Positions 2,086-49,918 of a stretch of DNA of 64,000 bases are shown in pieces. The notes below the pieces were generated by a model. It saw only the letters and a program-made list of their open reading frames with translations. It was not told where the DNA came from and searched no databases. The translations under genes were made by a program, and so were the position numbers. The DNA is from an uncultured Saprospiraceae bacterium. Its GTDB lineage: Bacteria; Bacteroidota; Bacteroidia; Chitinophagales; Saprospiraceae. The stretch lies in assembly GCA_938028705.1 (NCBI GenBank), contig CALIZI010000121.1, forward strand, positions 1 through 64,000, given 5' to 3'. Position 1 is the stretch's first letter. Every line of letters begins with the position of its first letter.

Positions 2086-2847
2086 TCATTTGCCGGACAG
2101 CAAAAACTTTTGAACTAAAAAATTATCTTCATACTGTAGCTGTACCAAGTACATTCCTGCGGGATGTGCAGAGCCGTTCCATCTGATTTCGTGATACCCG
2201 TTTGCCATAAGTTGATCCGCCAAAACAGTTATGGGTTGACCAAGTAGATCATAAATTTTCATCTTGGTCATTGCATATCCGGGCAGGTGAAATCGAAATG
2301 ATACTTGACCCGCTTCGGGCAGGTTTACGGGAGGCAGCAATTTCAGAGGATTGTCTGCGTCCAAATCTTCAATACCGACCATAACATCGCTGTCATTGAT
2401 GTCAAGGACAGGCGTTAAATCAACAAATGTAAGGGCTGCTGCCATAGCGGAAAAGTCGAGGTCAATCATAGCGGCACCCGGACCTACTTCAAATTCAATT
2501 TCCAATATCTGAATCATGCCACCTACGCCGGCAGCATTGGCTCCGTTGAAAAATAATTGTCCGCTTGATGTAGCTCCCATATCGTTGATAGTACCTGTAA
2601 AACCACCTTTTATACCGGAATTGGATTGATATTTTAAAAACGTCGGATTCCAACTCAAAGAACCTGTAAAACTGCCCAATAATTCGGCACTTGCCGACAT
2701 ATCTATGTCAATAGCTACGGTGATTATATCGCCCGAATTAGCAGTCAAGGATACCGGACTCAAAGAAGCCACTACATTTTGTGCAATAGCATTGGGCATG
2801 CAAAATCCGAACATTAGTATTGTATATATAGAAATTATTTTATTCAT
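2086..2847 (-). CDS. Secreted cohesin-like protein with T9SS sorting domain
   Basis: A 253-aa exported protein: signal peptide (about residues 1-22, ending NAIAQ), a cohesin-like beta-sandwich (about 24-160; SPVSLTANSGD start, GSFTGSLSWNP core, TPVLDINDSDV end), then a C-terminal T9SS type A sorting domain (KMKIYDLLGQPI through AGMYLVQLQ). The first domain is very close to that of the protein at 6517-7563. Between the two, on the same strand, lies a subtilisin ending in dockerin repeats, so a cohesin-dockerin partnership on the cell surface is a plausible inference. Cohesin assignment rests on fold-like sequence pattern, not on a search. Confidence 0.75.
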   Translation of the reverse strand: MNKIISIYTILMFGFCMPNAIAQNVVASLSPVSLTANSGDIITVAIDIDMSASAELLGSFTGSLSWNPTFLKYQSNSGIKGGFTGTINDMGATSSGQLFFNGANAAGVGGMIQILEIEFEVGPGAAMIDLDFSAMAAALTFVDLTPVLDINDSDVMVGIEDLDADNPLKLLPPVNLPEAGQVSFRFHLPGYAMTKMKIYDLLGQPITVLADQLMANGYHEIRWNGSAHPAGMYLVQLQYEDNFLVQKFLLSGK

Positions 2848-2935
2848 GATTATTATTTTAGAAGTGATTGATGAGAATTATTTTTCAATAAAATTAAAAT
2901 AAAAATATTTATAAAAAACATTATGTATTCTTTGC

Positions 2936-3110
2936 CTTGACAATGTTAAATTAAAAAAATAAAAGTATGCTTATTCTTAAAATCGGAAATCTGCCCCGAA
3001 TTTGGGCTAAAACTCGTCAGACATTTTCAAAATCTCAGACGAGTTTTAGCCCAAATTCAAGAGCAAAATACCAACTATAGTAAATAAAAATCGAACATGA
3101 CATTATCAAG
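2936..3110. repeat. MITE-like element, TTGACAATG family (copy A, shortened loop)
   Basis: Ends CTTGACAATGTT and AACATGACATTATCAAG form the terminal inverted repeats. Inside are the two arms GAATTTGGGCTAAAACTCGTC (2998-3018) and its reverse complement (3038-3058). The copy lies in opposite orientation to the ones at 6190, 21570 and 49706, and its loop is cut to about 14 bp. The remainder of the 2848-3346 spacer holds only AT-rich DNA and one hairpin. Confidence 0.75.
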
Positions 3111-3203
3111 TTACTATGTATAAAATTTTCTTGTGTAATATTTTTATTATTATTTAAAATGAATTATATAGTTATTTCATTTTGAAATCAAAAGACAAAT
3201 TTT

Positions 3204-3236
3204 ACTCGCCTTGCATTTCCAAAATGTAAGGCGAGT
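3204..3236. other. Strong isolated hairpin
   Basis: ACTCGCCTTGCATTT (3204-3218) pairs with AAATGTAAGGCGAGT (3222-3236) with one G.T-type mismatch and a 3-base loop. It lies about 110 bp downstream of the dockerin-subtilase stop, without a T-run, so it is more likely a repeat or mRNA-end structure than a classical terminator. Confidence 0.45.
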
Positions 3237-3346
3237 AGGCTATCCGAAAACTTATACAGTATCATTAGATTTTCAAAATGTCTGACCAATTTATAGCGCA
3301 GTCGTATCTCGTTAATTATAATGATATAAAAATATTTAAAATATTA

Positions 3347-5701
3347 TTATTCACCTGAACAAACCAACTGCAAAACAGGGAAAGGTATCTCAAAACCTGC
3401 ATCGAAGGACAGTATAATCAGTGCATCGGTAGAGTTGATTTTTCCATCCTGATTGACATCGCCACAGCGAACGGGATATTCAAGCGGCAATTGGATGCCT
3501 CCGACTTCGCGGCTCAAAATAATCAGCGCATCGGTAGAATTTGCCTGTTCGTCACCGTTCAAATCACCAAGATTGCCGCGCAATGCCTGTACCGCCATAG
3601 CAGACGCTCCACCTATGGGTATAGTACCGAAAAAAGTGACTGCATTGACGTTCATATTAATTTGGGCAGTAGTGCCGGGAGGTGTACCGGGCGGTGGAAA
3701 AAATGTAGCTTCTACCGTAACACCGCAGTCTTCGGGTGCCAGCGTGAAATTGCTTGGTTTGACGGAGTATTCCCAACCGGGAGGCACATCAACAGGGTCA
3801 ATTTCCACTACAATATTGGCAGTGGTGTTGAGCGGATTTTCTACGTGCATGCGTGCCACTGCCGGAGATGCCGTTTGGACGATACTGATATTTCGGGCGG
3901 CTTTGTTATTGGCATAATCATTATCCAAACCATAGCCGATTTCTACTTTCAGACAGGCATGTTCTATATCATTGGGCGAACCCATAGGTACCCAGGGCTG
4001 TATGACATTGAGTGTTGTATTTGCCGGAATATCAACGATTTGTGTGCCTACATCATAAAAAACGCGGTCGGTATTATTGGAATAAATATACACACCAAAT
4101 TGAACCAATACACCAAATGCCGCAGGTCCGTCATTGTCTATGGTCGCAATGATGCTATTGGGTGTACCCTCTACAACGGGCATAGTACCCGTAGTCAAAT
4201 CGGGTGAAAGATAATGTGGCGAAGGCGGATATGAGGGGAAGTTGACATCCGAAACAGCCGTTGCATCCAAAGCGGCAAAGGCATCGAGCAGACCGTAACC
4301 CCAATCAGCATTCCAAGTAGAAGATACCGCAGGCATATCGGCAGTAGGATCTACATCTTCGGCAGTGCGTACAATGAGGTCTTTGACACTGGCTGAATTG
4401 ATGCCCGGATATTGTTGTTTTATCAATGCCGCTACGCCCGCTACATGAGGAGATGCCATAGAAGTACCGCAATAACCTAAGCTGGTATATCCATTGGTGG
4501 TATTGTGTTGGGCAGAATTAATGCCGACACAAGTGGACGGTGGTGTAAAGGAAGTGGCACCGGGAGCGGCAACTTCCGGTTTTAATTCATCAAAATTATC
4601 AAAACCTGAATCATCGAGTCGCGGACCATTATTAGAAAATTCTGCCATCACATCATCGCCCCGTGCCACCGTTCCGAGTGTTTCGGATGCACCTACGGTA
4701 ATGACATTTGATGCTGCACCCGGACTTGTGAATCCGGTTGAATAATCATTGCCTGCCGCCGCCACCATCACGACACCCAGTGAACTGGCATGATTGGCAA
4801 GTTGACTGACCACATCCAACCCATTGCTATATATACTGCCGGAGCCATTGCACTGTCGAAAACTCATATTAACTACATCAACAATCGCTTCATTGTCAAT
4901 AATCCACTCCATACCTCGCGCTACTCTATCCCATACTCCGGGGGTACTACATGTAGTCGTTGCATCAATAAATTTTATATCTATCAATCCTGCACCGGGA
5001 GCTACACCTCTGAATGTTCCGGCTACACCGCCTGTTCCGAGAGCTGTGCCTGCTACGTGCGTTCCATGCCCTATCTCGTCATCAGGATTGGTATTTGTAT
5101 CAGTGATGGCATCGTATCCGGCTACATATTTACCTGTAAAACTTTCGTGTATGTCATCGTCAACGCCACTGTCAAAAATAGCAATATTAATACCCGTACC
5201 ATCAACTGAAGGAAAAGCATCTTCTACGGTATTGGGCGAATAATCGGTGCTTGAGGTCGCACGAATCGCCTGCATACTGATATTGTTGGTCATCGTAAAA
5301 CCGGCTGCGAGTTCTACCAGTGCGATATTTGCCTGTTCAAAATCTAAAAAAGTTAAATCGTAAGGTCTTACCCCTTCTATGTAAACGTAGGAAAGGTGTT
5401 TGCCTATTCTGATGTTAGTGAAACCCAATTGACCGAAAATTTCTGTCAGTTGACCTTCATCAACACATTCGCGCAAAGCCACCACAATGTCCATTTCATC
5501 AAATATAGGAGCTTCATCTATCAAATCATCAATGCGGTTTTGATTGAGGTCTCTGTTCCAGGGCAGAGGCTGGTCTGACTGCCAGACTAATGGGGTAAAC
5601 TGCGCTTGTACCAGATTTGATATTAAGATGAATGATAATACCATAGCAATACGCAAATATCTGCTATGTATCATGTTGGTGTAAATAAATTGTTGTTTCA
5701 T
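3347..5701 (-). CDS. Secreted subtilisin-like (S8) protease with C-terminal dockerin
   Basis: A 784-aa exported protein. Signal peptide about residues 1-34 (ends NLVQAQ), then an inhibitor-like propeptide, then a peptidase S8 domain (about 165-480). The catalytic residues are all visible: D177 in IFDSGVDD, H212 in GHGTHVAG, S414 in GTSMASPHVAG; the oxyanion Asn is N318 in AAAGN. A beta-rich region follows (500-700) and the end holds two calcium-binding dockerin-type repeats (GDLNGDEQANSTDALIILS and GDVNQDGKINSTDALIILS). There is no typical T9SS tail, so attachment through the dockerin to a cohesin protein such as its two neighbours is an attractive inference. The start could also be Met10 (5674). 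Confidence 0.88.
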   Translation of the reverse strand: MKQQFIYTNMIHSRYLRIAMVLSFILISNLVQAQFTPLVWQSDQPLPWNRDLNQNRIDDLIDEAPIFDEMDIVVALRECVDEGQLTEIFGQLGFTNIRIGKHLSYVYIEGVRPYDLTFLDFEQANIALVELAAGFTMTNNISMQAIRATSSTDYSPNTVEDAFPSVDGTGINIAIFDSGVDDDIHESFTGKYVAGYDAITDTNTNPDDEIGHGTHVAGTALGTGGVAGTFRGVAPGAGLIDIKFIDATTTCSTPGVWDRVARGMEWIIDNEAIVDVVNMSFRQCNGSGSIYSNGLDVVSQLANHASSLGVVMVAAAGNDYSTGFTSPGAASNVITVGASETLGTVARGDDVMAEFSNNGPRLDDSGFDNFDELKPEVAAPGATSFTPPSTCVGINSAQHNTTNGYTSLGYCGTSMASPHVAGVAALIKQQYPGINSASVKDLIVRTAEDVDPTADMPAVSSTWNADWGYGLLDAFAALDATAVSDVNFPSYPPSPHYLSPDLTTGTMPVVEGTPNSIIATIDNDGPAAFGVLVQFGVYIYSNNTDRVFYDVGTQIVDIPANTTLNVIQPWVPMGSPNDIEHACLKVEIGYGLDNDYANNKAARNISIVQTASPAVARMHVENPLNTTANIVVEIDPVDVPPGWEYSVKPSNFTLAPEDCGVTVEATFFPPPGTPPGTTAQINMNVNAVTFFGTIPIGGASAMAVQALRGNLGDLNGDEQANSTDALIILSREVGGIQLPLEYPVRCGDVNQDGKINSTDALIILSFDAGFEIPFPVLQLVCSGE

Positions 5702-5737
5702 GAGTAAATAATTTTAATAATAATTAGATTTTTGATA

Positions 5738-6094
5738 GGGCGCAGTTCCAAACTGTTCCGATTTATTTTCTTTTAAATATTTGATTATCAAAGGTTTATG
5801 TTTGTTTTCTAAAAATAGAATTAGACTTTTGAGATAAAAGGTGCAGTAGCACCGGCCCTATTTGTAACCGACGACTAACACTCCACCTCCTTAGCCGCAT
5901 AGCGGCGGCACTATTAAAATCGACGTATTAAGGGTGATTCCGATAGCTATCGGAACTATGCGCCTTTTTCGGTTTGGGGGAAGGTTTATTGTTACAAATA
6001 GTGCCGTTCCGATAGCTATCGGAATGCGACTATAAACAACTGATAATCAAATTTTTATAATTTCATTTTGAGCGGACAATTTAGAACTGCGCCC
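5738..6094. mobile_element. 357-bp non-autonomous transposable element with 9-bp target duplication
   Basis: Ends at 5738-5760 (starting GGGCGCAGTTC) and 6073-6094 (ending GAACTGCGCCC) form about 22-bp imperfect inverted repeats. Both are flanked directly by the identical 9-mer TTTTTGATA (5729-5737 and 6095-6103), a perfect target-site duplication. The interior is non-coding and has nested inverted repeats, including the palindrome CCGATAGCTATCGG twice and CTATTTGTAAC paired with GTTACAAATAG. It lies just upstream of the dockerin-subtilase gene. Confidence 0.85.
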
Positions 6095-6189
6095 TTTTTG
6101 ATAGAAGTTGAATAGTTAATTTATTGATTATTAATTAAAAATAAATTTTATTTAAAATTATTTAAATTAATAATAATGAGTTATTTAAC

Positions 6190-6356
6190 ATTGACAATGT
6201 CATGTTCGATTTTTATTTAATGTATTTTGCATTTTGCTCTTGAATTTGGGCTAAAACTCGTCTGACATTTAAACATTGCTGGAAAATATGACATCATCGG
6301 TGAATTTTGAAAATGTCTGACGAGTTTTAGCCCAAATTCGGAAAAAATATCCCTGC
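6190..6356. repeat. MITE-like element, TTGACAATG family (copy B, inverted loop, right end lost)
   Basis: Starts with TTGACAATGTCATGTTCG. Arms lie at 6242-6266 and 6315-6339. The 48-bp loop (6267-6314) is the reverse complement of the loop in the copy at 21570, while the flanking parts keep the same orientation. Similarity fades after AAAAAATATCCC, so the right terminus is missing or degraded. The 6357-6516 stretch holds nothing else recognisable. Confidence 0.75.
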
Positions 6357-6516
6357 CTAAAGCGAATACTCGTCAGACGAATCCTTTTATTTAAAGTGAT
6401 AATTTTATGAGACAAATCACCGTATTTCATAGCAACCTTCGTCTGCCGAGTAAACCCCGCAAGACACAAACTTAGACTGGTAGCCAATTTGTATTTTAAT
6501 TCATGCCCAATTATTT

Positions 6517-7563
6517 CTATTGCTTGATTACTTTCTTCGTTATCGTCTCTGTGGGAGTAATGAGGTGGAGAAGATAAGTGCCGGCTGGAAAATTGCGGGT
6601 ATTTATCTGCCATCTGTTTTGCGTAGAATTTGTTTGTTGTGAAAATATTTTTTTACCATGAATATCAAATAATTCAATGGATAAAATGTGGTATTCACTA
6701 TCCGCATATTCTACATAAAATGAAGCTTCTGCCGGATTGGGATAGACCAAAATTTCGTCTGTTGTTATGCTATCTTCAAATTTGACGACTTCAATCGGGC
6801 TATAATCCATAGTGCCGTCAAAGTCCACCTGTTGTAGGCGATAATAATTATTGCCGGAAAAGGGTGTAGTATCTGTAAAAGAATAACTGCGCTCGGTCCG
6901 GCTTTCGCCTGCGGCGGAGATTTTGCCTATACTTTCCCATTTTATAGCATCTGTACTGCGTTGAATGTCAAAATAATCGCTATTGATTTCCGTAGCGGTA
7001 CGCCATTTTAGCCGGCTGCTATACTTGTCTTTTTCGGCTGTAAAATCAATTAATTCGACGGGTAGGAGCGGGCAAATCATACCGTCCTTGACATCAAGAA
7101 CGGGCGTTAGATCAACAAAGGTAAAAGCGGCTGCCATAGCGGAGAAGTCGAGGTCGAGCATAGTTGGTCCTGCCCCCATTTCAAATTGAATGTCCAATAT
7201 TTCAATCACGCTGCCTACGCCGCCGGTATTGGCTCCATTGAAGAAGAATTGTCCGCTTGGTACAGCTCCCATATCGTTGATAGCACCTGTAAAACCACCT
7301 TTTATACCGGAATTGGATTGGTAGATTAAAAATGCAGGATTCCAACTCAGAGAACCTGTAAAACTGCCCAGTAATTCGGGGCTTGCCGACATGTCTATCT
7401 CAATAGTTATGTTGATGATGTCACCTTGATTGGCAGTGAGGGATTCGGGGTTCAAATAAGCAACGACATCCTGTGAAATTGCATTGGATATTGCCAGACA
7501 CATCAATGCGAGCATTATGGTCAACTTTGATTTGAACTTGTATTGTAATGTTTTCATTTTCAT
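6517..7563 (-). CDS. Secreted cohesin-like protein with T9SS type A sorting domain
   Basis: About 348 aa from the Met at 7563 (Met at 7557 is equally likely; the open frame reaches 7644, but the signal peptide begins at MKTLQYKFKSKLTIMLAL). Signal peptide ends NAISQ. Next is a cohesin-like domain nearly identical to that of 2086-2847 (GSFTGSLSWNPAFL, NDMGAVPSGQFFFNGAN). Then comes a beta-sandwich common before T9SS tails (LIDFTAEKDKYSSRLKWRT, YYRLQQVDFDGT) and finally a type A sorting domain (VYPNPAEASFYVEY through AGTYLLHL). It probably acts as a surface anchor; the dockerin subtilase next door is the natural candidate partner. A recent duplication gave the two cohesin genes. Confidence 0.8.
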   Translation of the reverse strand: MKMKTLQYKFKSKLTIMLALMCLAISNAISQDVVAYLNPESLTANQGDIINITIEIDMSASPELLGSFTGSLSWNPAFLIYQSNSGIKGGFTGAINDMGAVPSGQFFFNGANTGGVGSVIEILDIQFEMGAGPTMLDLDFSAMAAAFTFVDLTPVLDVKDGMICPLLPVELIDFTAEKDKYSSRLKWRTATEINSDYFDIQRSTDAIKWESIGKISAAGESRTERSYSFTDTTPFSGNNYYRLQQVDFDGTMDYSPIEVVKFEDSITTDEILVYPNPAEASFYVEYADSEYHILSIELFDIHGKKIFSQQTNSTQNRWQINTRNFPAGTYLLHLITPTETITKKVIKQ

Positions 7564-7751: not shown

Positions 7752-8234
7752 TTATTGACAAACCGAACATTGCTTGCGAACACCCGGAGTGGGGTCGCCA
7801 CCAAATGTAATATTATTGCATCTTGCACTACCGGAAACTGTTTTTTCAACAAAACTTTCGCTTGTGCCGTAGCGGACTACCTGTGTACCTGAGAAGTTGA
7901 GTCTTTGGTGTTCGGCGGCAACAACCTTCCAGCAAGAGGAGCGTGCTTCCTCACAGACTGAGCATAGTTTGTGCAGTCCGGGAGCCGGGTCGCCAAATAC
8001 AGTATTGACGCATCTTGTACCGGCAGGAACTGTCATTTCAACAAATCTTCCATTGGCACCATAACGTATCATTTGTGTACCCGACATGTTGAGTCTTTGC
8101 CCTTCGGTAGCAATGACCGTCCAGTTATCACAAGATGCTGACTGTGCCGATGTCTCATTATTGAATAACATACATAGAGACATTAAAAGAAATGCAAACA
8201 AGCTGTGGAGTTTAAATACTTTTAATTTTTTCAT
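7752..8234 (-). CDS. Small secreted protein with two Cys-containing tandem repeats
   Basis: A 160-aa protein with a signal peptide (about residues 1-30, ends ETSAQ) and two repeats of about 60 aa. Each repeat follows C-W-V-A-E-QRL-SGTQ-RYG-FVE-V-RC-FGDP-PG-CSVC, with three to four conserved cysteines, suggesting disulfide-stabilised beta units. Similar repeats occur in secreted lectin-like or carbohydrate-binding modules, but I cannot name the family with certainty. It has its own promoter (8319-8349) and terminator (7685-7714), so it is a monocistronic, probably well-expressed exoprotein. Confidence 0.8.
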   Translation of the reverse strand: MKKLKVFKLHSLFAFLLMSLCMLFNNETSAQSASCDNWTVIATEGQRLNMSGTQMIRYGANGRFVEMTVPAGTRCVNTVFGDPAPGLHKLCSVCEEARSSCWKVVAAEHQRLNFSGTQVVRYGTSESFVEKTVSGSARCNNITFGGDPTPGVRKQCSVCQ

Positions 8235-13450: not shown

Positions 13451-14875
13451 ATGAAGGATACCAAACTCATTAAAGTCATAGAAAAATTCTCGAAAACTGA
13501 TTTGAAGAGGATGAAAGAATTTGTCCATTCTCCCTTTTTTCGGGCAAGCAAAACAGAACGGGATTTATTCGATTTTATCTACAAGTATGCGCCTGATTTT
13601 GACCACAAAAAATTCACACCCGAACAAGCGGCTAAGTACATTTTTACGGATAAAAAATACGATGCCTCTGCGCTGATTAAAATACAATCAAGGCTTTTTA
13701 AACTGGTGGAACTCTTTATATATTATTATTTTAGAGATGAAAATCTGCCTGATGTAGAAGTAGCGTTGATGAAATTTTATGACAGAGAAAATCTGACTTC
13801 GCAAGTTGAAACCACATATAAAAAAATTCAGAAAAAACAAGAAGCCTACCCGCACCGGGATTTTATGCACTATTTCAATCAATTAACCATAGAAAAGCAA
13901 TACAAAGATTTTTTGGTGGGCAAATTTGAAGATGGTAAAGGCAATACGCATTATCAAAAGGTGATGGAAATCTTAGACATTTTTTACCTGACAGAGAAAC
14001 TCATACAAATTTGTCAATTATATAATCGTCAGATGTTGACGAATGTGAATTATGAGGTAAAATTAATGGATGAAATACTGGCATTTTTGCCCGATAGCGA
14101 TTATAAAGATGTGCCAATAATAAAAATATGGTACACTGCGCTATCCTTACTACATTCTGCCGATAAATATGAACATTACCGCCAACTCAAAACACTACTG
14201 ATAGAACATAACAGCTTACTGAATCAACGTGATAAGCGTGCGCTATATACCTATTTGGAAAATAATACAAGCATGGTCTTTGAGAGTGATGCTTATTATA
14301 AGGCTTTATTTGATTTGTATTCCAGACAACTGGAAGATGCGACCATTTATATTGACGGCTACCTGCTACCAACCATTTTTAAAAACATCGTAACGGTAGG
14401 TTTGCGACTGGAACATCTGGAGTGGACGGAGCAGTTTTTGGAAAACAACAAAGACAAAATTGTTCCCGAATACGAGGACAGAGACGACGTATATAGTTAT
14501 TCGCTGGCACAATTATACTTCAAACAACAAAAAATAGATGATGTACTTGATGTCCTCAATCGCACGGTTTTCAATGATATTTATATCAAAATGGACATCC
14601 GCCGAATGTATCTCAAAGTCTATTACGAAATGAAATATGACGATATGTTGGAAGATATGGTCAATAGTTTTCGTGTATTTCTGACCAGTCACCAAGATAC
14701 TATTCCTGCCATACATATACAGGCACACCGCGATTTCATCAATGTCATTTACAATATTTACCGCACAATGAAAAAGGATAAAAAGCGCATCGAAGCCATG
14801 GAAAATCAAATCGCTGAAATAAATATTTTGCCCGAAAAAAGTTGGTTGTTGGAAAAACTGGATACTTTACGATAA
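13451..14875 (+). CDS. Conserved helical protein of unknown function (paralogue of 32169-33605)
   Basis: A 474-aa soluble protein, nearly all helix by composition, with the look of a TPR-like or alpha-solenoid protein. It has a family hallmark near the N-terminus (LKRMKEFVHSPFFRASKTE) and ends with SWLLEKLDTLR. The same architecture and motifs occur in the 478-aa protein at 32169-33605 (SPYFNKNEDCLHLFRLL near the start; KNIVTVG in the middle; DWLLEKIAQLKG at the end). No signal peptide, no nucleotide-binding motif, no catalytic signature. Members of this type appear as multicopy hypothetical proteins in Saprospiria-like genomes. Function not known; a scaffold or regulator is possible. Confidence 0.8.
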   Translation: MKDTKLIKVIEKFSKTDLKRMKEFVHSPFFRASKTERDLFDFIYKYAPDFDHKKFTPEQAAKYIFTDKKYDASALIKIQSRLFKLVELFIYYYFRDENLPDVEVALMKFYDRENLTSQVETTYKKIQKKQEAYPHRDFMHYFNQLTIEKQYKDFLVGKFEDGKGNTHYQKVMEILDIFYLTEKLIQICQLYNRQMLTNVNYEVKLMDEILAFLPDSDYKDVPIIKIWYTALSLLHSADKYEHYRQLKTLLIEHNSLLNQRDKRALYTYLENNTSMVFESDAYYKALFDLYSRQLEDATIYIDGYLLPTIFKNIVTVGLRLEHLEWTEQFLENNKDKIVPEYEDRDDVYSYSLAQLYFKQQKIDDVLDVLNRTVFNDIYIKMDIRRMYLKVYYEMKYDDMLEDMVNSFRVFLTSHQDTIPAIHIQAHRDFINVIYNIYRTMKKDKKRIEAMENQIAEINILPEKSWLLEKLDTLR

Positions 14876-21569: not shown

Positions 21570-21779
21570 TTGACAATGTCATGTTCGATTTTTATTTAAT
21601 GTAGTTGGTATTTTGCTCTTGAATTTGGGCTAAAACTCGTCAGACATTTTCAAAATTCACCGATGATATCATATTTTCCAACAATGTTTAAATGTCAGAC
21701 GAGTTTTAGCCCAAATTCGGAAAAAATATCCCATGTTAAACACAAACATACTTTTATTTTTAAAACATGACATTGTCAA
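21570..21779. repeat. MITE-like element, TTGACAATG family (copy C, complete)
   Basis: Exact 16-bp ends, TTGACAATGTCATGTT at the left and AACATGACATTGTCAA at the right. Internal arms at 21621-21645 and 21694-21718 enclose a 48-bp loop. This is the best preserved copy of the family and defines its length, 210 bp. It fills most of the spacer between the Septu-like operon and the OmpA-family gene. Confidence 0.85.
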
Positions 21780-27963: not shown

Positions 27964-29688
27964 TTACAAATTTCCTTTTTTCAATTGTTCTACGGCATAA
28001 TTGGCGGCACGTGCCGTCAGTGCCATATATGTGAGGCTCGGATTTTGACAAGCTGCGCTCGTCATGCAAGCCCCATCTGTATTAAATAAATTTGGTATTT
28101 GATGTACTTGATTCCACTTATTGAGGACGCTGGTTTTGGGGTCGTGTCCCATGCGTGCCGTACCCATTTCGTGGATACCCAAGCCTACACCGTAACTGCC
28201 GTCATAAGGCTGCACATTTTTGAGTCCTGCCTTTTCCAAAATTTCAACGGCAGATTCCATGATGTCTTTCCGCATTTCGGTTTCGTTTTCTTTGAGTTCG
28301 GTGCTAAATTTGAGGATAGGAAGCCCCCATTGGTCTTTTTTATCCGTTAGTTCCATTTTATTGTCGTGATAAGGAAGAATCTCGCCGAAACCTGCAATAC
28401 CGAATTGCCACATACCGGGGCCAAACATCTCATCTTTGTATTCAGCACCAAAGCCCAATTCGGCTATACCGCGCATCCAATTTTTGCGACTCGACCAACC
28501 TTGATAACCATAACCGCGCAAGAAATCCATCTTGGTTTCCGGTCTGCCGGGTAGATTGCGAAAACGTGGAATATAAATCCCATTCGGACGTCTGCCTTTA
28601 TAGTATTTATCCTCCATGCCTTCGTATTCGCCATTCGCGCCTACACCAAGTTGGTGGTCCATCATATTATGTCCCAATTCGCCGGACTCTGCACCGATTC
28701 CTTCGGGAAAGCGGTTGCTTTTGCTCATCATCAATATCTTCGTAGAATGTACCGTCGAAGCGTTGAGGAAAATTACTTTTGCTTTAAAAAAATAATCCTT
28801 TTTTGTTTTCGCATCAATCACACGGATGCCACTTGCCCGTTTTTTATCCTCATCATAAACTACTTCATAAACAATCGAATCGGGGCGCAAGGTCAGGTTA
28901 CCTGTCGCGTCGGCAGCCGGCAAGGTAGAGGATTGACTGCTAAAATACGCCCCATACGGACAGCCACGCATACAACGGTCTCTGGACTGACAGGTGCCTC
29001 GACCATTCAATCCCTTCGGGTCGGTGATATGCGCTGCCCTGCCGATGGTCATGATTCTATCGTCGAAATTTTTGGCGATATTTTTCCGCATTTCTTCTTC
29101 CAAACAAGTGAAATCCATTGGCGGTTGGAATATCCCGTCGGGCAATTGCGGCAAGCTCTCTTTTCTGCCACTCACACCTATATACGCTTCCACGTAGTCA
29201 TACCATTTCGCAATATCTTTGTACCGAATGGGCCAATCGATACCGATGCCTTCCTTTGCATTTGCCTCAAAATCCATCGGACTCCAACGGTAGCTCTGCC
29301 TTCCCCACATCAGGGAGCGTCCGCCCACTTGATAGCCGCGAATCCAATCAAAGCGTTTGCCTTCGGCTTCTTCGTAAGGGTGTTCGCTGTCTTTTACAAA
29401 AAAATGTATATGCCCTTCATTGACGATATAACCTCCGAAGCGACTTTGTACAGAATAATCTCGCTCAATGACTTCCGGTGTCAATTTTTTATCTTCCGGT
29501 TTGAAATCCCACGAGTCCATATTGGCGGTGTGATAATCGGTTACATGCCTGACATTTCTACCTCTTTCGAGTACTAGCGTTTTGAGTCCTTTTTCACAGA
29601 GTTCTTTAGCTGCCCAACTGCCACTAATGCCACTGCCAACGACAATCGCATCATAAGTATCTGTGCTATTTTCTGTGAATAAATTCAT
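27964..29688 (-). CDS. GMC family FAD oxidoreductase (copy 1)
   Basis: A 574-aa flavoprotein of the glucose-methanol-choline family, closest in style to bacterial glucoside 3-dehydrogenase/gluconate 2-dehydrogenase large subunits. FAD-binding start AIVVGSGISGSWAAKELCEKG; a Cys-rich segment CQSRDRCMRGCPYG typical of that subgroup; C-terminal HEMGTARMGHDP and the NTDGACMTSAACQNPSLTY substrate/FAD region. No signal peptide of its own, in line with export by the Tat-dependent subunit 3 partner encoded next to it. A nearly identical second copy lies at 30311-32029. Substrate not determinable; 3-oxidation of glycosides is likely by context. Confidence 0.93.
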   Translation of the reverse strand: MNLFTENSTDTYDAIVVGSGISGSWAAKELCEKGLKTLVLERGRNVRHVTDYHTANMDSWDFKPEDKKLTPEVIERDYSVQSRFGGYIVNEGHIHFFVKDSEHPYEEAEGKRFDWIRGYQVGGRSLMWGRQSYRWSPMDFEANAKEGIGIDWPIRYKDIAKWYDYVEAYIGVSGRKESLPQLPDGIFQPPMDFTCLEEEMRKNIAKNFDDRIMTIGRAAHITDPKGLNGRGTCQSRDRCMRGCPYGAYFSSQSSTLPAADATGNLTLRPDSIVYEVVYDEDKKRASGIRVIDAKTKKDYFFKAKVIFLNASTVHSTKILMMSKSNRFPEGIGAESGELGHNMMDHQLGVGANGEYEGMEDKYYKGRRPNGIYIPRFRNLPGRPETKMDFLRGYGYQGWSSRKNWMRGIAELGFGAEYKDEMFGPGMWQFGIAGFGEILPYHDNKMELTDKKDQWGLPILKFSTELKENETEMRKDIMESAVEILEKAGLKNVQPYDGSYGVGLGIHEMGTARMGHDPKTSVLNKWNQVHQIPNLFNTDGACMTSAACQNPSLTYMALTARAANYAVEQLKKGNL

Positions 29689-29839
29689 GATTAAAATGTG
29701 ATAATGTTACAATGCGTTAATGCGATAATGTTAATGAGTGAATGAGTGAATATTTTTAATGTGTAAATATTAATTTTTGTATTTTAATTTTAAATAATAT
29801 AAAACATTGATAAATATTTTTTTAAACTAAATTAATTTA

Positions 29840-30310: not shown

Positions 30311-32029
30311 TTATAAATTCCCTTTCTTGAGTTGCTCTACGGCATAATCGGCGGCGCGTGCGGTTAGTGCCATGTATGTGAGACTTGGGTTTTGACAAGC
30401 TGCGCTCGTCATGCAAGCCCCATCTGTATTAAATAAATTTGGTATTTGATGTACCTGATTCCATTTGTTGAGAACGCTCGTTTTGGGGTCGCGCCCCATG
30501 CGTGCCGTACCCATTTCGTGGATGCCCAAGCCTACACCGTAGGGAGCTTCGTAAGGCGATACATTTTTGAGTCCTGCCTTTTCGAGAATTTCAACGGCAG
30601 ATTCACTCATGTCCTTACGCATCTTTTCTTCGTTTTCCTTGATTTCAGTAGTGAAATTGACTATCGGTATGCCCCATTCATCTTTCTTATTGGTCAGTTC
30701 CATTTTATTTTCATGGTAAGGCAACATTTCACCGAAAGCTGTCATACCAAATCGCCAGGGACCCGGCTCAAACATTTCATCTTTATACGCCCCGCCAAAG
30801 CCCAGTTCAGCCACGCCACGCATCCAGTTTTGACGACTTGCACCACCTTGATAACCGTAGCCGCGCAAAAAATCCTTCTTAGTTTCCGGTCTGCCGGGCA
30901 GGTTGCGGAAGCGCGGGATGTAAATGCCGTTGGGTCGTCTGCCTTTATAATATTTATCTTCAAAACCCTCAAAATCGCCACTCGCGCCCACTCGAAAATG
31001 GTGGTCCATCATATTATGTCCCAACTCACCGGATTCGGCACCGATACCTTCAGGGAAGCGGTTACTTTTGCTCATCATCAATATCTGCGTGGAGGCAACA
31101 GCCGAGGCATTGAGGAAGATAACTTTTGCTTTGAAAAAATAATCTTTTTTGGTCTCTGTATCAATCACACGGACACCGCTTGCACGTTTTTTATCTTCAT
31201 CATAGACCACTTCATATACAATCGAATTGGGGCGCAAAGTCATATTACCGGTCTCATTTGCAGCGGGTAAGGTAGAAGCTTGACTGCTAAAGTATGCTCC
31301 ATACGGACAACCGCGCATACAGCGATTTCTGAACTGACACGTGCCTCTGCCGTTCAGTCCTTTTGGGTCAGTGATATGCGCTGTTCTTCCGATAGTCATA
31401 ATTCTATCGTCGAAGTTTTTAGCAATATTTTTACGCAATTCTTCCTCTACGCAATTAAAATCCATTGGTGGCTGAAATACGCCATCGGGTAATTGTGGCA
31501 AACCTTCTTTCCTGCCACTCACGCCTATATAAGCTTCTACGTAATCATACCATTTTGCAAGGTCTTCATACCGAATAGGCCAGTCCACCGCGATACCATC
31601 TTTCGCATTTGCTTCAAAATCCATCTGACTCCAACGGTAGCTCTGCCTGCCCCAGACCAGCGAGCGTCCGCCTACCTGATAACCACGAATCCAGTCGAAG
31701 CGTGTACCTTCGGTTTCTTCGTAAGGGTGTTCGCTGTCTTTTACGAAAAAATGGACATGTTCTTCCTTTGTAGTATAGCCCGTCCGGTTTTGTTTGGGGT
31801 AGTCTTTTTCCAGTTCTTCTTTCGACAATCTGCCACCGTATTTAAACTCCCAAGCGTCCATATTGGCAGTTTTGTAATCCGTCACATGTTGTACATTTCT
31901 GCCGCGTTCAAGCACCAATGTTTTAAGTCCTTTTTCACAGAGTTCCTTAGCAGCCCAACCGCCGCTGATACCACTTCCGACCACAATAGCATCGTAGGTA
32001 TCAGGGCTGTTTTCAGTAAATAAATTCAT
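30311..32029 (-). CDS. GMC family FAD oxidoreductase (copy 2)
   Basis: 572 aa, the same architecture as 27964-29688 and clearly a recent duplicate: the proteins share nearly all of their first 55 residues, the CQFRNRCMRGCPYG segment, and identical ends (YAVEQLKKGNL). Differences cluster around residues 60-90 (GGRLSKEELEKDYPKQNRT here) and 380-430. The FAD motif AIVVGSGISGGWAAKELCEKG is intact, as is HEMGTARMGRDP. No separate subunit 3 gene follows this copy, so it may share the one at 27210. Promoter box TATCTTTG lies 63 bp upstream. Confidence 0.93.
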   Translation of the reverse strand: MNLFTENSPDTYDAIVVGSGISGGWAAKELCEKGLKTLVLERGRNVQHVTDYKTANMDAWEFKYGGRLSKEELEKDYPKQNRTGYTTKEEHVHFFVKDSEHPYEETEGTRFDWIRGYQVGGRSLVWGRQSYRWSQMDFEANAKDGIAVDWPIRYEDLAKWYDYVEAYIGVSGRKEGLPQLPDGVFQPPMDFNCVEEELRKNIAKNFDDRIMTIGRTAHITDPKGLNGRGTCQFRNRCMRGCPYGAYFSSQASTLPAANETGNMTLRPNSIVYEVVYDEDKKRASGVRVIDTETKKDYFFKAKVIFLNASAVASTQILMMSKSNRFPEGIGAESGELGHNMMDHHFRVGASGDFEGFEDKYYKGRRPNGIYIPRFRNLPGRPETKKDFLRGYGYQGGASRQNWMRGVAELGFGGAYKDEMFEPGPWRFGMTAFGEMLPYHENKMELTNKKDEWGIPIVNFTTEIKENEEKMRKDMSESAVEILEKAGLKNVSPYEAPYGVGLGIHEMGTARMGRDPKTSVLNKWNQVHQIPNLFNTDGACMTSAACQNPSLTYMALTARAADYAVEQLKKGNL

Positions 32030-32091
32030 TATGGATTGGATTTAATTTGAAAGGTTGTGAATGAATATTTTGCTCACATAACAAAGATAGA

Positions 32092-34969: not shown

Positions 34970-35062
34970 AAACAATATTCACACATTTAAAAAAATACAA
35001 CACAATGTAAACATCCGAACCATCCACACACCAATATCAATTATTCATCTAAAAAAAGCATC

Positions 35063-38000
35063 ATGAAAAATTACGTCCCAGTATCAAAAATCATGTTATT
35101 ATGCTTGTTCATTACTGTACAAGCTACCGCTCAACCCGCTAATCAAAACACCGATGAGATTATTATAAAATTCAAATCGGATGTAACTCATCAGGTCAAA
35201 TCACAACTACGCAATCAAGTACAAGCCACCAAAAAATCAAAGATATTATCAAGTGACATCAGCACTTGGCAACTCCCCAAAAACACCCTGTTCCTCAAAG
35301 GACAACATATTCAAAACACCCAAGATTATATCGACTACCTCAATCAACAACCGGAGGTCGTCTATGCCGAACCCAACTACGCCGTCCAAGTACTCAGCAC
35401 ACCCAATGACCCACAAATTGACCAACTCTGGGGGATTCAAAACAATGGACAAACAGGCGGTTTGCAAGGCGCAGATATGCGCGTATTCGAGGCTTGGGAT
35501 ATTCGGCACGATGCCACCGCTACGCCTATTGCGATACTTGATACAGGCATTGATTGGCAACACGAAGACCTAATAAAAAATGTATGGCAAAACCTCGGCG
35601 AAGATGCCGACGGCGATGGTCAAGTACTCGAATGGAATGGCACTGAATGGACTTTTGACCCCGATGACGAAAACGGAATTGACGATGATGGAAATGGCTA
35701 TGATGACGACTTCATCGGCTGGGATTTTGTAAATAATGACAACAACCCTTATGATGATAATGGACACGGTACACACGTAGCGGGCATCGCAGGTGCGCGA
35801 GGCAATAACGGTATTGGCACAACAGGTATCGCATGGGAAGCTCAATTGCTCGCACTTAAAGTCTTTGACGCAAATGGTTCAGGCTCAATGGATAATGTCA
35901 TTGCTGCATTGGACTACACCATTCAACAAGGTATCAAAATAACCAACAACAGTTGGGGAACAATCTCCGAATCACAAGCACTCTACGATGCGATTAACAA
36001 CACCCAAAATACCGGACAAATCTTCGTAGCAGCAGCAGGTAATAACGCCACTGATAATGACCTCGCTTTCGGTAATATTTATCCGGCAAGTTATGACCTC
36101 GACAACATCATCGCAGTAGCATCCACCAATCAGTTTGACCAAAAGGCTAACTTCTCCAATTATGGAGCAGTGACGATTGATATTGGGACGCCGGGCAAGG
36201 GAATTTATAGTACCTTGCCCGGCAATAGTTACGGTTATTTGTATGGCACATCTATGTCTGCGCCTTACCTTGCCGGAGCTGCCGCCTTGTTGTGGTCGGA
36301 AGCCAATACGCTTGCACCACTTCAAGTCAAAAACACCCTCCTCAACACCGCTCAACCACTACCCGATTTAGAAGGAAAATGCGTTTCAGGCGGACGACTT
36401 GACCTATTTAATGCACTACATACGCTCACCACGCCTAATGCCGATTTTGAAGTAACAAATACAGGTTTGACCATTGATTTGGCTGCCGAAAATATAAGTT
36501 CCGGTACGACTTATCAATGGAATTTTGGCGATGGCGCAAGCGCGACCTCATCCGTACCTACGCACACCTACACGAGCGAAGGCAATTACCCCGTCTGCCT
36601 GACTGTAACCAAGTACGGACAAAGCAATACTTTTTGCAAAAATATTACCGTCATTCAAAATGGCAACACCAACGATTGTGAAACCGAATGGACACTACAA
36701 ACGCACGGTGACCGCATGAATGCACTTGCCCCCGACGGCGAATATATTTGGGCAGGAACAACAGGTGGTTTGCTAAAATTTAATACCCTCACCGATGATT
36801 TTATTTTTTACAGTACGGTCAATTCCGACCTGCCACATAATGACGTACTTTCGGTAGCAACCGACCTCAACGGCTATCTTTGGGTCGGCACGGGCGAGGG
36901 CGGTGCAGCCAAATTTGACGGTACGAATTGGACGATTTATAACACACAAAATTCAGGTATTCCCAACAATAGAATCACTGATATTGCTATCGCGCCAAAC
37001 GGTGAAATTTGGATAGCTACCGAAGGTGGCGGTGCTGCCCGATTCGATGGAAATTCGACTTGGCAGGTCTATGATGCTTCCAATCATTTACCGAGTGGTT
37101 CAGGTTATGGATTCAATGTAATTAATGATATTGAAATAACCACCGATGGTACAATATGGATAGGTATGCGTGGTGAGGGACTTGTCAAATTTGATGGTAC
37201 AAATTGGATAAATTATAGAAAATCGAATGGTTTAAATCACAATAATGTTCGCACAATTGCGAGCGATTCCAATACCGGAAATTTATGGCTTGGCACACAA
37301 AAAGGCATGGTGCAATTCACACCTTCTAATGAGCAATTTACATTATTAAATGCTTTACAAAATATCAATATGCTCTCTTCTTACGTCAGTCCGCAAGGCG
37401 AGCCTTGGTTTGGAAATGCTATTGGTTTACACCAATTACACACAGATGGTACTATCACTATACACAACGGACAAAGCACCGATTACGAGTTGAGAAGTAG
37501 TGTAATCAGAGCCATTACCCAAGACGAAAACGGCAATATGTGGATAGGTACAGGCAGAAGCCTTACGAAATATGACGGCACTACATGGACAGGTTATCGC
37601 CAATTTAATGATGAGATTTCCGGTAACGATGTACTTGGTATCAAACAAGCCTCTTCCGGTGAAATATTCGTAGGAACATACAGCGATGTCATGCGTATCC
37701 TTGATGATACAATTTATCGTTATTCCGTCGGCAATTCAGCTTTGACGACCACAGAAGTACGCGATATTCTTGCTGATGATAATGGCACAATTTGGCTCGC
37801 AACACGTAAAGGCATTGCCGAAATTACTCAATTTGAAAACCCCAATAACTGGACAATTTATGATACACTTGGCACATCCGGTGTAGTCATCGGAGCGCAA
37901 GATTTTCACAGCCTTGCCCAAGACCACAACGGCACACTTTGGGCAGGTATCACCAATGGTGGTTTATATAAATATGATGGTGCAACTTGGACATACATCA

Positions 38001-40777
38001 GCCCCAATAACTCACCTTTGCCGACTTATGCTGTCAGAGATATTACTTTTGACCCTGTACATCAAAACATTTGGATAGCCACCGCAGGAAAAGGACTCGT
38101 ACAAGTGGATGCTAATGATAATTGGACGATTTATAATAAAGAAAATAATCAATTAAGACACAACACCGTCAATACCGTAACCACTGATAATCAAGGCAAT
38201 GTATGGTACGGAACAGATTGGGGAATGGGTGTATTCGACGGTATAGATTTCATCAATCATCATCCCAACAATTCAGATATTATTGACAATAAAGTCCTTT
38301 CATTACACACCGATTCCAATACTGGAAATGTATGGGTAGGTACAAAAGAAGGCTTATGTAAATTTGACGGAGTAGATAAATGGACGGCTTATGACAATGG
38401 TAGCATCAACATCAGCGACCCCGTACAAGCCATAGAAATCACCGATGACGGCAGAAAATGGATAGGCACTTACGGTGGTTTGAGCATACTTGCGGCTGAT
38501 TTGGCTTCCTTTTCTTTTGATAATTATAGTCCCTGTACAGATTCGATAATTACATTTTATAATACTTCAGAAAATACAAATACAGGCGATTGGTATGTCA
38601 ATGATGTCTATATTTCTTCTGCGCCGAATATCACCTATAATTTCCCGTCAAAAGGCATTTACGAAGTCAAACTAATCGCGAATGACGGCGGTATTTGTAC
38701 GTCCGAATTTAAAAAAGATATTATTATTGGTGATAATGCGAATTTACTCGAATTAGAAGACGCAGTAACGGTATGTGATGATTATTTTATAATAAAAACA
38801 GAACTCGAACACCTCGCTTCTTACCGTTGGTATTTTGATAATATGATGGTTGGAAATCAATCCGAATACACCGCTATGCAGTCCGGTCAATACATTTTAA
38901 ACGTAGAAGACCCTTGCGGAAATACCAAGTCTGATACACTCCAACTTACCCTCGAAGACAACTGCGTGTGGTCCGGCGATACAAATGATGATGGTATCGT
39001 CAATCTATTTGATGTACTTCGCATTGGCAGAGCATATAATACTGTGGGAATTGCTCGTCCTAATCCTTCTATTGAATGGGAAGCACAAACATCAGAAGAT
39101 TGGAACGCTACATTTTTTGATGATATAAATTACAAACACACCGACACCAATGGTGACGGCATCATTGACATCAACGACATAGATGCGATTCTTGCAAACT
39201 ATAAAAAAACACATGGTTTAAATCCGTCTTACCCTGCATCAGACATAGGTGGTGCAGTACAACTCGTACTAAATATCAACCAACCCACCATTTTAAATGG
39301 CGTTGCCAATACTACAATTGGTATCAACTTGGAACACACAAACGGAGAAAATATCAATGCCTATGGCTTGGCATTTACGCTCAACCATAGCGGTACAGCA
39401 AGCACTGATTTCAGCAATTCTTCTTTTGGGAATAGCAGCGATATACTTACATTTGAAAAAAGCCAAGCCGGACAAACTGACATCGTAATTATACGAAAGG
39501 ATAAAAATAATATTATTGGAAATGGTACTACAGCTATCGTTTCTACATTGGAAGACCTTCCACACGGAGAACCCGAAGTCAACAACCTCTCCATCCTCAG
39601 CATCAACAATGTACGCCTGATAGACAAAGACGGCAACATCATCCCCATCGGTAGCCAGACTACAACCTATAGTGCCGATGTGCAAAGCATGGACATCATC
39701 ACCAATGCACAACCTCTGAATTGTGAAGGTTTGGGTGAAGTACAAACAAGTATCACAGGTGGTACGCCTCCATACACCTACACATGGAGCAATGGTACAA
39801 ATACCCAAAATATTGCCAACCTTGAAACGGGATTATACCACCTCACTGTCACCGATGCCAATGGTATGACTGCCGAAACCACCACTTTCATCGACGACAA
39901 ATCCATACGCCTCAATACTGAAACTAGGCCCGAAACCAACGGACTTGCCAATGGCACAGCTGCTATCACCGTAGGCGGTGGCACAGGCAATTACAGCTAT
40001 CTTTGGAGTACAGGACAAACAGGTGAAAATATAGTGGGTTTAGAATCAGGCACTTATACCGTTACAGTAACAGATGAATCGGGCTGTATGCAGGAAGCTA
40101 TTGCGATAGTTCCCGGTAATATCCAACTCAATATGCGCGTATTTTTAGAAGGAAATTATATTCCCGATGACGGTATGATGCACGATGATTTAAGAAAACT
40201 CAATTTACTGCCTCTTACGTCGCCCTATCATTCCAATGAAAAAACATTGACGGGTATATTCTCCACAGAGAGCAATGATGCAATAGTGGACTGGCTAAAA
40301 ATCAAACTCCTTGACCCTATAACTTTTACGATTTTAGATAGTCGTTCTGCCTTATTGCAAAGAGACGGTGACATTGTAGAACTTGATGGTAAAACATCTA
40401 TCAGTATGAGCATTGCTGAAAACAGAGACGCACTATTACTCATTCGTCATCGCAATCACTTGGGCATTATATCGCCAAATCATGTTGAACCAAATACAAC
40501 ATTTAATGCCGATTTTACGCAGCAAAATACAACAAATTTTGGGGCAGGACAAAAACAACTCCCCACAGGCGAATGGCTAATGTACGCAGGAAATGCGGTT
40601 GACAATACTGGAATTGATGAAGAAGTCAATGGCGAAGATAAAGGTACGTGGTTCTCATTAAACGGTAATTTCAAAGTTTACACTCGCGAAGATTTCAACC
40701 TTAATGGTGATGTCAATGGTGCAGACAAAATATTTTGGCAACGCAATAACGGTACTTTCAACAACTTACCCGAATAA
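35063..40777 (+). CDS. Giant secreted subtilase with propeller, PKD, dockerin, cohesin-like and SprB-like domains
   Basis: A 1904-aa exported protein. Signal peptide 1-23 (ends TATAQ); propeptide (DEIIIKFKSD); S8 protease about 130-430 with D160 in AILDTGID, H235 in GHGTHVAG, N327 in AAAGN and S397 in GTSMSAPY. Next a PKD domain (455-535; YQWNFGDGA), a long two-component-regulator-type propeller (545-1140) with about thirteen WVGT/WIGT-type blades, another PKD-like domain (1150-1220), a dockerin (about 1305-1385; GDTNDDGIVNLFDVL, DTNGDGIIDINDIDAIL), a cohesin-like domain (about 1395-1535; AYGLAFTLNHSGTAS), two SprB-like repeats (GGTPPYTYTWSNG; GGGTGNYSYLWSTG) and a final EF-like GDVNGADK segment. 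It has no standard T9SS tail. A dockerin and a cohesin-like domain in one chain could allow self-assembly, an inference. Confidence 0.9.
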   Translation: MKNYVPVSKIMLLCLFITVQATAQPANQNTDEIIIKFKSDVTHQVKSQLRNQVQATKKSKILSSDISTWQLPKNTLFLKGQHIQNTQDYIDYLNQQPEVVYAEPNYAVQVLSTPNDPQIDQLWGIQNNGQTGGLQGADMRVFEAWDIRHDATATPIAILDTGIDWQHEDLIKNVWQNLGEDADGDGQVLEWNGTEWTFDPDDENGIDDDGNGYDDDFIGWDFVNNDNNPYDDNGHGTHVAGIAGARGNNGIGTTGIAWEAQLLALKVFDANGSGSMDNVIAALDYTIQQGIKITNNSWGTISESQALYDAINNTQNTGQIFVAAAGNNATDNDLAFGNIYPASYDLDNIIAVASTNQFDQKANFSNYGAVTIDIGTPGKGIYSTLPGNSYGYLYGTSMSAPYLAGAAALLWSEANTLAPLQVKNTLLNTAQPLPDLEGKCVSGGRLDLFNALHTLTTPNADFEVTNTGLTIDLAAENISSGTTYQWNFGDGASATSSVPTHTYTSEGNYPVCLTVTKYGQSNTFCKNITVIQNGNTNDCETEWTLQTHGDRMNALAPDGEYIWAGTTGGLLKFNTLTDDFIFYSTVNSDLPHNDVLSVATDLNGYLWVGTGEGGAAKFDGTNWTIYNTQNSGIPNNRITDIAIAPNGEIWIATEGGGAARFDGNSTWQVYDASNHLPSGSGYGFNVINDIEITTDGTIWIGMRGEGLVKFDGTNWINYRKSNGLNHNNVRTIASDSNTGNLWLGTQKGMVQFTPSNEQFTLLNALQNINMLSSYVSPQGEPWFGNAIGLHQLHTDGTITIHNGQSTDYELRSSVIRAITQDENGNMWIGTGRSLTKYDGTTWTGYRQFNDEISGNDVLGIKQASSGEIFVGTYSDVMRILDDTIYRYSVGNSALTTTEVRDILADDNGTIWLATRKGIAEITQFENPNNWTIYDTLGTSGVVIGAQDFHSLAQDHNGTLWAGITNGGLYKYDGATWTYISPNNSPLPTYAVRDITFDPVHQNIWIATAGKGLVQVDANDNWTIYNKENNQLRHNTVNTVTTDNQGNVWYGTDWGMGVFDGIDFINHHPNNSDIIDNKVLSLHTDSNTGNVWVGTKEGLCKFDGVDKWTAYDNGSINISDPVQAIEITDDGRKWIGTYGGLSILAADLASFSFDNYSPCTDSIITFYNTSENTNTGDWYVNDVYISSAPNITYNFPSKGIYEVKLIANDGGICTSEFKKDIIIGDNANLLELEDAVTVCDDYFIIKTELEHLASYRWYFDNMMVGNQSEYTAMQSGQYILNVEDPCGNTKSDTLQLTLEDNCVWSGDTNDDGIVNLFDVLRIGRAYNTVGIARPNPSIEWEAQTSEDWNATFFDDINYKHTDTNGDGIIDINDIDAILANYKKTHGLNPSYPASDIGGAVQLVLNINQPTILNGVANTTIGINLEHTNGENINAYGLAFTLNHSGTASTDFSNSSFGNSSDILTFEKSQAGQTDIVIIRKDKNNIIGNGTTAIVSTLEDLPHGEPEVNNLSILSINNVRLIDKDGNIIPIGSQTTTYSADVQSMDIITNAQPLNCEGLGEVQTSITGGTPPYTYTWSNGTNTQNIANLETGLYHLTVTDANGMTAETTTFIDDKSIRLNTETRPETNGLANGTAAITVGGGTGNYSYLWSTGQTGENIVGLESGTYTVTVTDESGCMQEAIAIVPGNIQLNMRVFLEGNYIPDDGMMHDDLRKLNLLPLTSPYHSNEKTLTGIFSTESNDAIVDWLKIKLLDPITFTILDSRSALLQRDGDIVELDGKTSISMSIAENRDALLLIRHRNHLGIISPNHVEPNTTFNADFTQQNTTNFGAGQKQLPTGEWLMYAGNAVDNTGIDEEVNGEDKGTWFSLNGNFKVYTREDFNLNGDVNGADKIFWQRNNGTFNNLPE

Positions 40778-49705: not shown

Positions 49706-49918
49706 TGACAATATCATGTTCGATTTTTATTTAATATAGTCAGTGTTGTCCTTGAATTTGGGCTAAAACTCGTCTGACATTTTCAAAATTCACCAATGAA
49801 CTCATATTTTTTCGGTAAAGTTTAAATGTCTGACGAGTTTTAGCCCAAATTCGGAAAAAATATCCCATTTCAAGTATAAACGCATTTTTATTTTTAAAAC
49901 ATGACATTATATGTCAAG
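49706..49918. repeat. MITE-like element, TTGACAATG family (copy D)
   Basis: CTTGACAATATCATGTTCG at the left; AAAACATGACATTATATGTC, then AAG, at the right (small insertion in the right terminus). Arms and loop are in the same orientation as the copy at 21570. Left flank TTAT and right flank TTAT could be a 4-bp duplication, not supported by other copies. The rest of 49449-50064 is AT-rich. Confidence 0.75.

Follow-up and report, generated by a model that had tools for sequence, protein, structure and literature searches.

Three neighbouring genes on the minus strand (P0001, P0002 and P0003; 2086-7563) probably encode a small cohesin-dockerin surface system, in which a protease would be docked on two cohesin partners anchored by the type IX secretion system (T9SS). 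They lie in the window, by which we mean the whole stretch of 64,000 nucleotides that was analysed.

In the mechanism that we propose, P0001 and P0003 would be exported by Sec and then cross the outer membrane with the help of the type IX system. Their T9SS C-terminal sorting domains (CTDs) would fix them on the surface, each showing one cohesin outward. P0002, which carries a signal peptide and no T9SS signal, would insert the calcium-loop dockerin at its C-terminus into one or the other cohesin, the two anchors of one cohesin type serving as two landing places, and would thereby be held on the cell surface or be carried out together with the cohesin protein. The trio would be the split form of a single chain present in relatives, in which a front part (protease or VWA) is followed by a cohesin, a dockerin, a second cohesin and a CTD. 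We infer that the P0002 dockerin binds the cohesins of P0001 and P0003 and that the protease reaches the surface, where docking could follow export or precede it. In a more tentative version, which we consider doubtful, the CTD-less protease would dock its cohesin-CTD partner in the periplasm and cross the T9SS with it, this being a general route in the family for dockerin proteins that have no CTD. If this were true, the cohesin-dockerin pair would be an export adaptor, beyond its role as an anchor, and would constitute a new T9SS route. The trio makes it testable whether a T9SS substrate can carry a docked partner across the outer membrane.

The gene trio and its genome

The gene of P0002 (784 aa, 3347..5701) is located between those of P0001 (253 aa, 2086..2847) and P0003 (348 aa, 6517..7563). 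All three, with the domains given below, are on the minus strand, and each has an intact reading frame and its own signal peptide. P0001 continues with one cohesin-type domain (2386..2781), which is 70-76% identical to the P0003 domain, and ends with a T9SS type A CTD (2101..2289) of the FlgD-like type that is also present in the fused relatives described below. P0003 has one cohesin-type domain (7069..7473), a pre-CTD region and a T9SS type A CTD (6520..6747). The NCBIfam model TIGR04183 (cut-off 23) recognises a T9SS type A sorting domain in both proteins, with 25.5 bits for P0001 and 53 bits for P0003.

P0002 is composed of a signal peptide, a pro-region, a subtilase, a beta-domain region and a terminal dockerin. 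The Peptidase_S8 catalytic domain (4352..5200; Pfam E 1e-43) is complete, with the subtilase motifs DSG, HGTH and GTSMASP intact and the Asp-His-Ser triad at D177/H212/S414, and the middle region of the protein gave no confident Pfam match. The type I dockerin (3413..3571, residues 711-763; Dockerin_1 E 2.7e-9) contains both repeats, GDLNGDEQANSTDALIILS and GDVNQDGKINSTDALIILS, and both calcium loops, scoring 37.5-41.9 bits against PF00404 (cut-off 22.9). The chain stops 21 residues past the dockerin, and no T9SS C-terminal sorting domain was found on P0002 in Pfam, NCBIfam and CTD searches. In summary, the trio has the layout described in the initial annotation, that is, a subtilisin ending in two dockerin-type repeats, as borne out by the Pfam domains, the intact triad and both loops, whose gene lies between those of two secreted proteins with a T9SS end, as borne out by the TIGR04183 scores.

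The two dockerin loops are the same at positions 10-11 (Ser-Thr) and 17-18 (L-S). Ser-Thr at positions 10-11 is shared with the type I dockerins of C. thermocellum, and both pairs of positions make contact in type I dockerins; identical contact residues in both loops are compatible with the dual binding mode. A different dockerin-like type (GD.N.DG ... ANGDG) is found in the middle of the chain in two large subtilases, at 34991-40774 and at L032:4111-9795. Both contain PKD, propeller and SprB repeats and have a further dockerin-like end, and no T9SS CTD was found on either of them.

The intergenic gaps of the trio are 499 and 815 bp long, so the genes may not form one operon. No evident decayed coding sequence was seen when these gaps were inspected by eye, and a decayed gene fusion was dropped for this reason. 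Each gap contains a copy of a palindromic repeat (GGGCTAAAACTCGTC ... GACGAGTTTTAGCCC), at 2998..3058 (also placed at 3004-3052) between P0002 and P0001 and at 6242..6339 (also placed at 6248-6333) between P0003 and P0002. These two copies are in opposite orientation, with 80-nt stretches that are 91% alike, and further copies at 21627-21712 and 49760-49846 bring the number in the window to four, where none is expected by chance. The repeat is possibly a small mobile hairpin element, and we do not regard it as a component of the system.

Adjoining the trio, 1046-2026 encodes a CHAT-domain protein with the effector-associated domain EAD11, which seems to form part of a gene for signalling or defence, and 7752-8234 encodes a secreted 160-aa protein in which two Cys-containing repeats, each of about 64 residues, resemble each other. 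The 474-aa protein of 13451-14872 belongs to a large paralogous family; its own genome yielded 13 matches, and each genus genome 8-16. In congeners, the genes that separate the trio from 13451 are missing from the matching place, with the exception of a relative of the 7752 gene that is found near the marker gene in G003. Elsewhere in the window, two tandem reading frames of about 580 aa (27967-29706 and 30314-32041) with near-identical ends (MNLFTENS.DTYDAIVVGSG) look like FAD-type oxidoreductases.

The host genome (8.0 Mb in 483 contigs, 98% complete) contains a complete SprA gene (full-length, 2440 bits) and hence a T9SS. A search of the 8.0 Mb revealed no copy of the P0002 dockerin type or of the window cohesin type beyond the single dockerin and the two cohesins of the trio, all inside 5.5 kb. 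Since both domain types were found nowhere else in the genome, this clustering goes beyond chance. Neither type was found in the five other genus genomes searched, which implies that the trio is an accessory trait and that its function is not conserved across the genus.

A search for other dockerins in the genome, suggested in the initial annotation, returned four more Pfam dockerins of a different sequence type; the cohesins found elsewhere are the one in C100 and a weak match in C17. With four further dockerins and at least one more cohesin (C100) in the genome, P0001 and P0003 might serve as receptors for other dockerin proteins, or for the dockerins of neighbouring cells, and the dockerin of the subtilase might be used elsewhere. 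We regard this as quite improbable, since the P0002 dockerin alone matches the clade of fused proteins described below, and since the clustering within 5.5 kb would then be accidental.

P0001 and P0003 had also been taken for recent duplicates, a view that we reject. Only the signal-peptide/cohesin half is common to the two proteins (70% protein identity over 152 residues; 84% at the DNA level, over no more than 300 nt), and its dS is about 0.62; the C-terminal halves are different. The low dN/dS of this half (0.21) suggests that both cohesin domains are under constraint.

The first domain of P0001 and P0003

The first domain of P0001 and P0003 comprises about 130 residues and has no match to PF00963, not even at E 10; the homologous domains in the fused relatives match PF00963 weakly. 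As PF00963 is blind to the domain, its homology to cohesins rests on profile comparison and fold searches. We compared a profile of eight domains of the window type, from relatives in the same family (A1), with an alignment of 20 PF00963 matches from family genomes (A2), which itself picks up PDB cohesins, up to E 2e-14 (4ums). The profile-profile comparison of A1 and A2 gave a probability of 91% and E 9e-7. The wider set was needed for this result, the five closest domains alone giving a weak hhalign match (probability 36%, P 4e-4). Among the weaker A1 matches in family genomes that were examined, 24/25 are in proteins also found by A2, and the remaining one, in G222, belongs to the cohesin type of the window itself. 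A phmmer search with P0003 and an hmmsearch with A1 found no cohesin among the PDB sequences; antibody chains appeared at E 0.01-1 and were taken as chance. In the contig scan with P0003, the matches were mostly to the T9SS half, which is a common one.

AlphaFold gave no usable model for P0003 alone (pLDDT 38), and the domain was modelled from a two-row alignment of both window cohesin domains, with moderate confidence (pLDDT 66, pTM 0.60). When this two-sequence model was compared with the PDB by Foldseek, the best 31 rows were all cohesins, and in VIA-align a cellulosomal cohesin of C. cellulolyticum that was solved with its dockerin reached Z 10.8 (118 residues at 2.5 A). The fold class is broad, and pilins and other beta-sandwiches came next, at Z 9 to 9.7. 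These scores, together with the missing Pfam cohesin match, speak for another reading, in which the domain would be a ligand-binding beta-sandwich of the CBM2/3-like superfamily and no receptor for dockerins, and the trio a secreted protease accompanied by two adhesins. However, cohesins top both fold searches as well as the profile searches, and the same domain type flanks the dockerin in four relatives, so that we consider such a sandwich very improbable indeed. In summary, cohesins lead by sequence and by structure, and the comparisons support a cohesin fold for the first domain of both proteins, in line with the initial description of this domain as cohesin-like.

Fused relatives and the dockerin proteins of the family

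In four relatives (G055, G116, G276 and G006), one chain carries cohesin, dockerin, cohesin and T9SS signal, with the window cohesin type on both sides of the dockerin, behind a front part that is an M43 metalloprotease in three of them and a VWA protein in one. When the P0002 dockerin was compared with 298 family genomes, the best matches beyond its own genome were, in order, the fused proteins of G055, G116, G276 and G006 (E 9e-15 to 2e-5), followed by weaker matches from E 5e-4. The four closest relatives of the dockerin are exactly the four fused carriers of the window cohesin type. The trio hence looks like a split version of the one-chain unit, and the agreement between the two sets shows a common descent of the P0002 dockerin and the window cohesin as a pair. 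This by itself is no proof of binding, as the joint inheritance in fused relatives may just mean that the domains travel as one block. In G222, a metalloprotease-cohesin-CTD protein is found in which the dockerin is absent, and its gene adjoins a subtilase gene with a T9SS signal that is split over two frames (L120:5165-6609).

We also looked at cohesins and dockerins across the family. PF00963 is found in 140/150 and PF00404 in 143/150 family genomes, and the genomes without cohesin or dockerin tend to miss both (three without either, Fisher p 0.007). Whole reading frames were then scanned for 80 of the best-scoring family dockerins, which are not a random sample. Cohesin and CTD are both present in 48 of these proteins, 17 have the CTD only, 13 have neither and 2 are truncated where their contig ends; in 0/80 did a cohesin occur unaccompanied by a CTD (Fisher p 5e-7). 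In the 48, the dockerin nearly always comes first, followed by the cohesin and then the CTD, and its distance to the C-terminus is about 277-310 residues; most of the 13 have their dockerin at most 65 residues from the end. The CTD profile used here was built partly from surveyed proteins and was cross-checked on seven with NCBIfam and Pfam. The CTD-less proteins include trypsin-like proteases, recognised by weak Pfam matches (L130, L143) or by reading the sequence (L212), as well as one protein that resembles thioredoxin (L147). L148 probably does have a CTD, scoring marginally below threshold. No adjoining cohesin genes were found for the other CTD-less dockerin proteins checked. Outside the family, A1 matches dockerin-cohesin-T9SS CTD proteins in two other families of the phylum (L122:4078-6192 and L123:8821-12801), which implies that the cassette is wider than one family.

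The near-fixed spacing of dockerin and cohesin in the 48 chains would suit a fixed stalk. In that case, the two domains would be mere stalk modules, kept together as a block by descent, that stabilise or lengthen surface proteins, and the split genes of the window would be remnants of a fused gene whose products never meet, P0002 lacking a CTD as expected of a broken gene. This is unlikely for several reasons. The three reading frames are intact, each with a signal peptide, the cohesin pair evolves at the low dN/dS given above, and inspection of the gaps by eye showed no evident coding remnant. Moreover, CTD-less dockerin proteins recur in the family, a recurrence that a one-off break cannot account for, and, to our knowledge, the natural cohesin-dockerin pairs studied so far bind.

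The best reading of the family sequences is that dockerin proteins without a sorting signal would dock onto T9SS-anchored cohesin partners, as proposed for the trio. The surface protease held through cohesin-dockerin binding, as put forward in the initial annotation, thus gains support for its pairing, both from descent in the four fused relatives and from the family-wide split between cohesin-CTD and CTD-less proteins, and the holding itself stays a prediction. If correct, it would account for the way in which secreted proteins that lack a T9SS signal can be located on the cell surface. The survey counts further point to a large, barely described set of T9SS-tied natural cohesin-dockerin pairs, which could also be used as protein connectors.

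Comparison with known systems

The trio shares with the clostridial cellulosome the cohesin fold, a two-repeat calcium-loop dockerin on a secreted enzyme and a receptor on an anchored protein, and differs from it by T9SS anchoring instead of SLH domains and by a protease as cargo. There is no multi-cohesin scaffoldin in the trio, each anchor protein having one cohesin, and Pfam searches of the trio found no CBM and no glycosidase or other carbohydrate-degrading cargo. Hence, the comparison with a cellulosome made in the initial annotation holds as a principle only. If the proposed docking is true, the use of the cohesin-dockerin plug would reach beyond cellulose degradation and include a protease that Bacteroidota display by the T9SS.

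Cohesin and dockerin proteins beyond cellulosomes were reportedly described by Peer et al. (2009), in archaea and other bacteria, as cited in PMC9012536 and PMC8542988; according to PMC9012536, they are known in archaea. The trio resembles these proteins by its use outside cellulose degradation and by few modules per protein, and no T9SS-tied cluster of a protease and two anchors was found in the passages covered of those two papers. Our literature search found no paper on such systems in this bacterial family. For Ca. Paraporphyromonas, PMC5831590 reports T9SS-linked multimodular enzymes, which are secreted hydrolases. In such enzymes, the sorting signal presumably belongs to the hydrolase chain, whereas in the trio it is on a separate partner.

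According to the part of PMC8542988 available to us, a cellulosome-like complex for use on polypeptides was proposed, as a prediction only, for Ca. Stygibacter (Cloacimonadota). Like the trio, it combines signal-peptide enzymes with C-terminal dockerins, including a serine peptidase (S8/S53) and a peptidase of type C25, with a cohesin protein that is anchored at the cell surface through a C-terminal domain of the T9SS type. Unlike in the trio, its cohesins are in tandem in one scaffoldin of 3,755 residues with CBM2/CBM3, and it comes from a different phylum; the trio has a single divergent cohesin per anchor, located beside the protease gene, and one-chain equivalents in relatives. As far as that source goes, the principle was already proposed for Ca. 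Stygibacter and the trio is a variant of it. What is new is the divergent single-cohesin anchor type, its occurrence in both split and fused form, the grouping of a protease gene with two anchor genes, and the division between cohesin-CTD and CTD-less dockerin proteins throughout the family.
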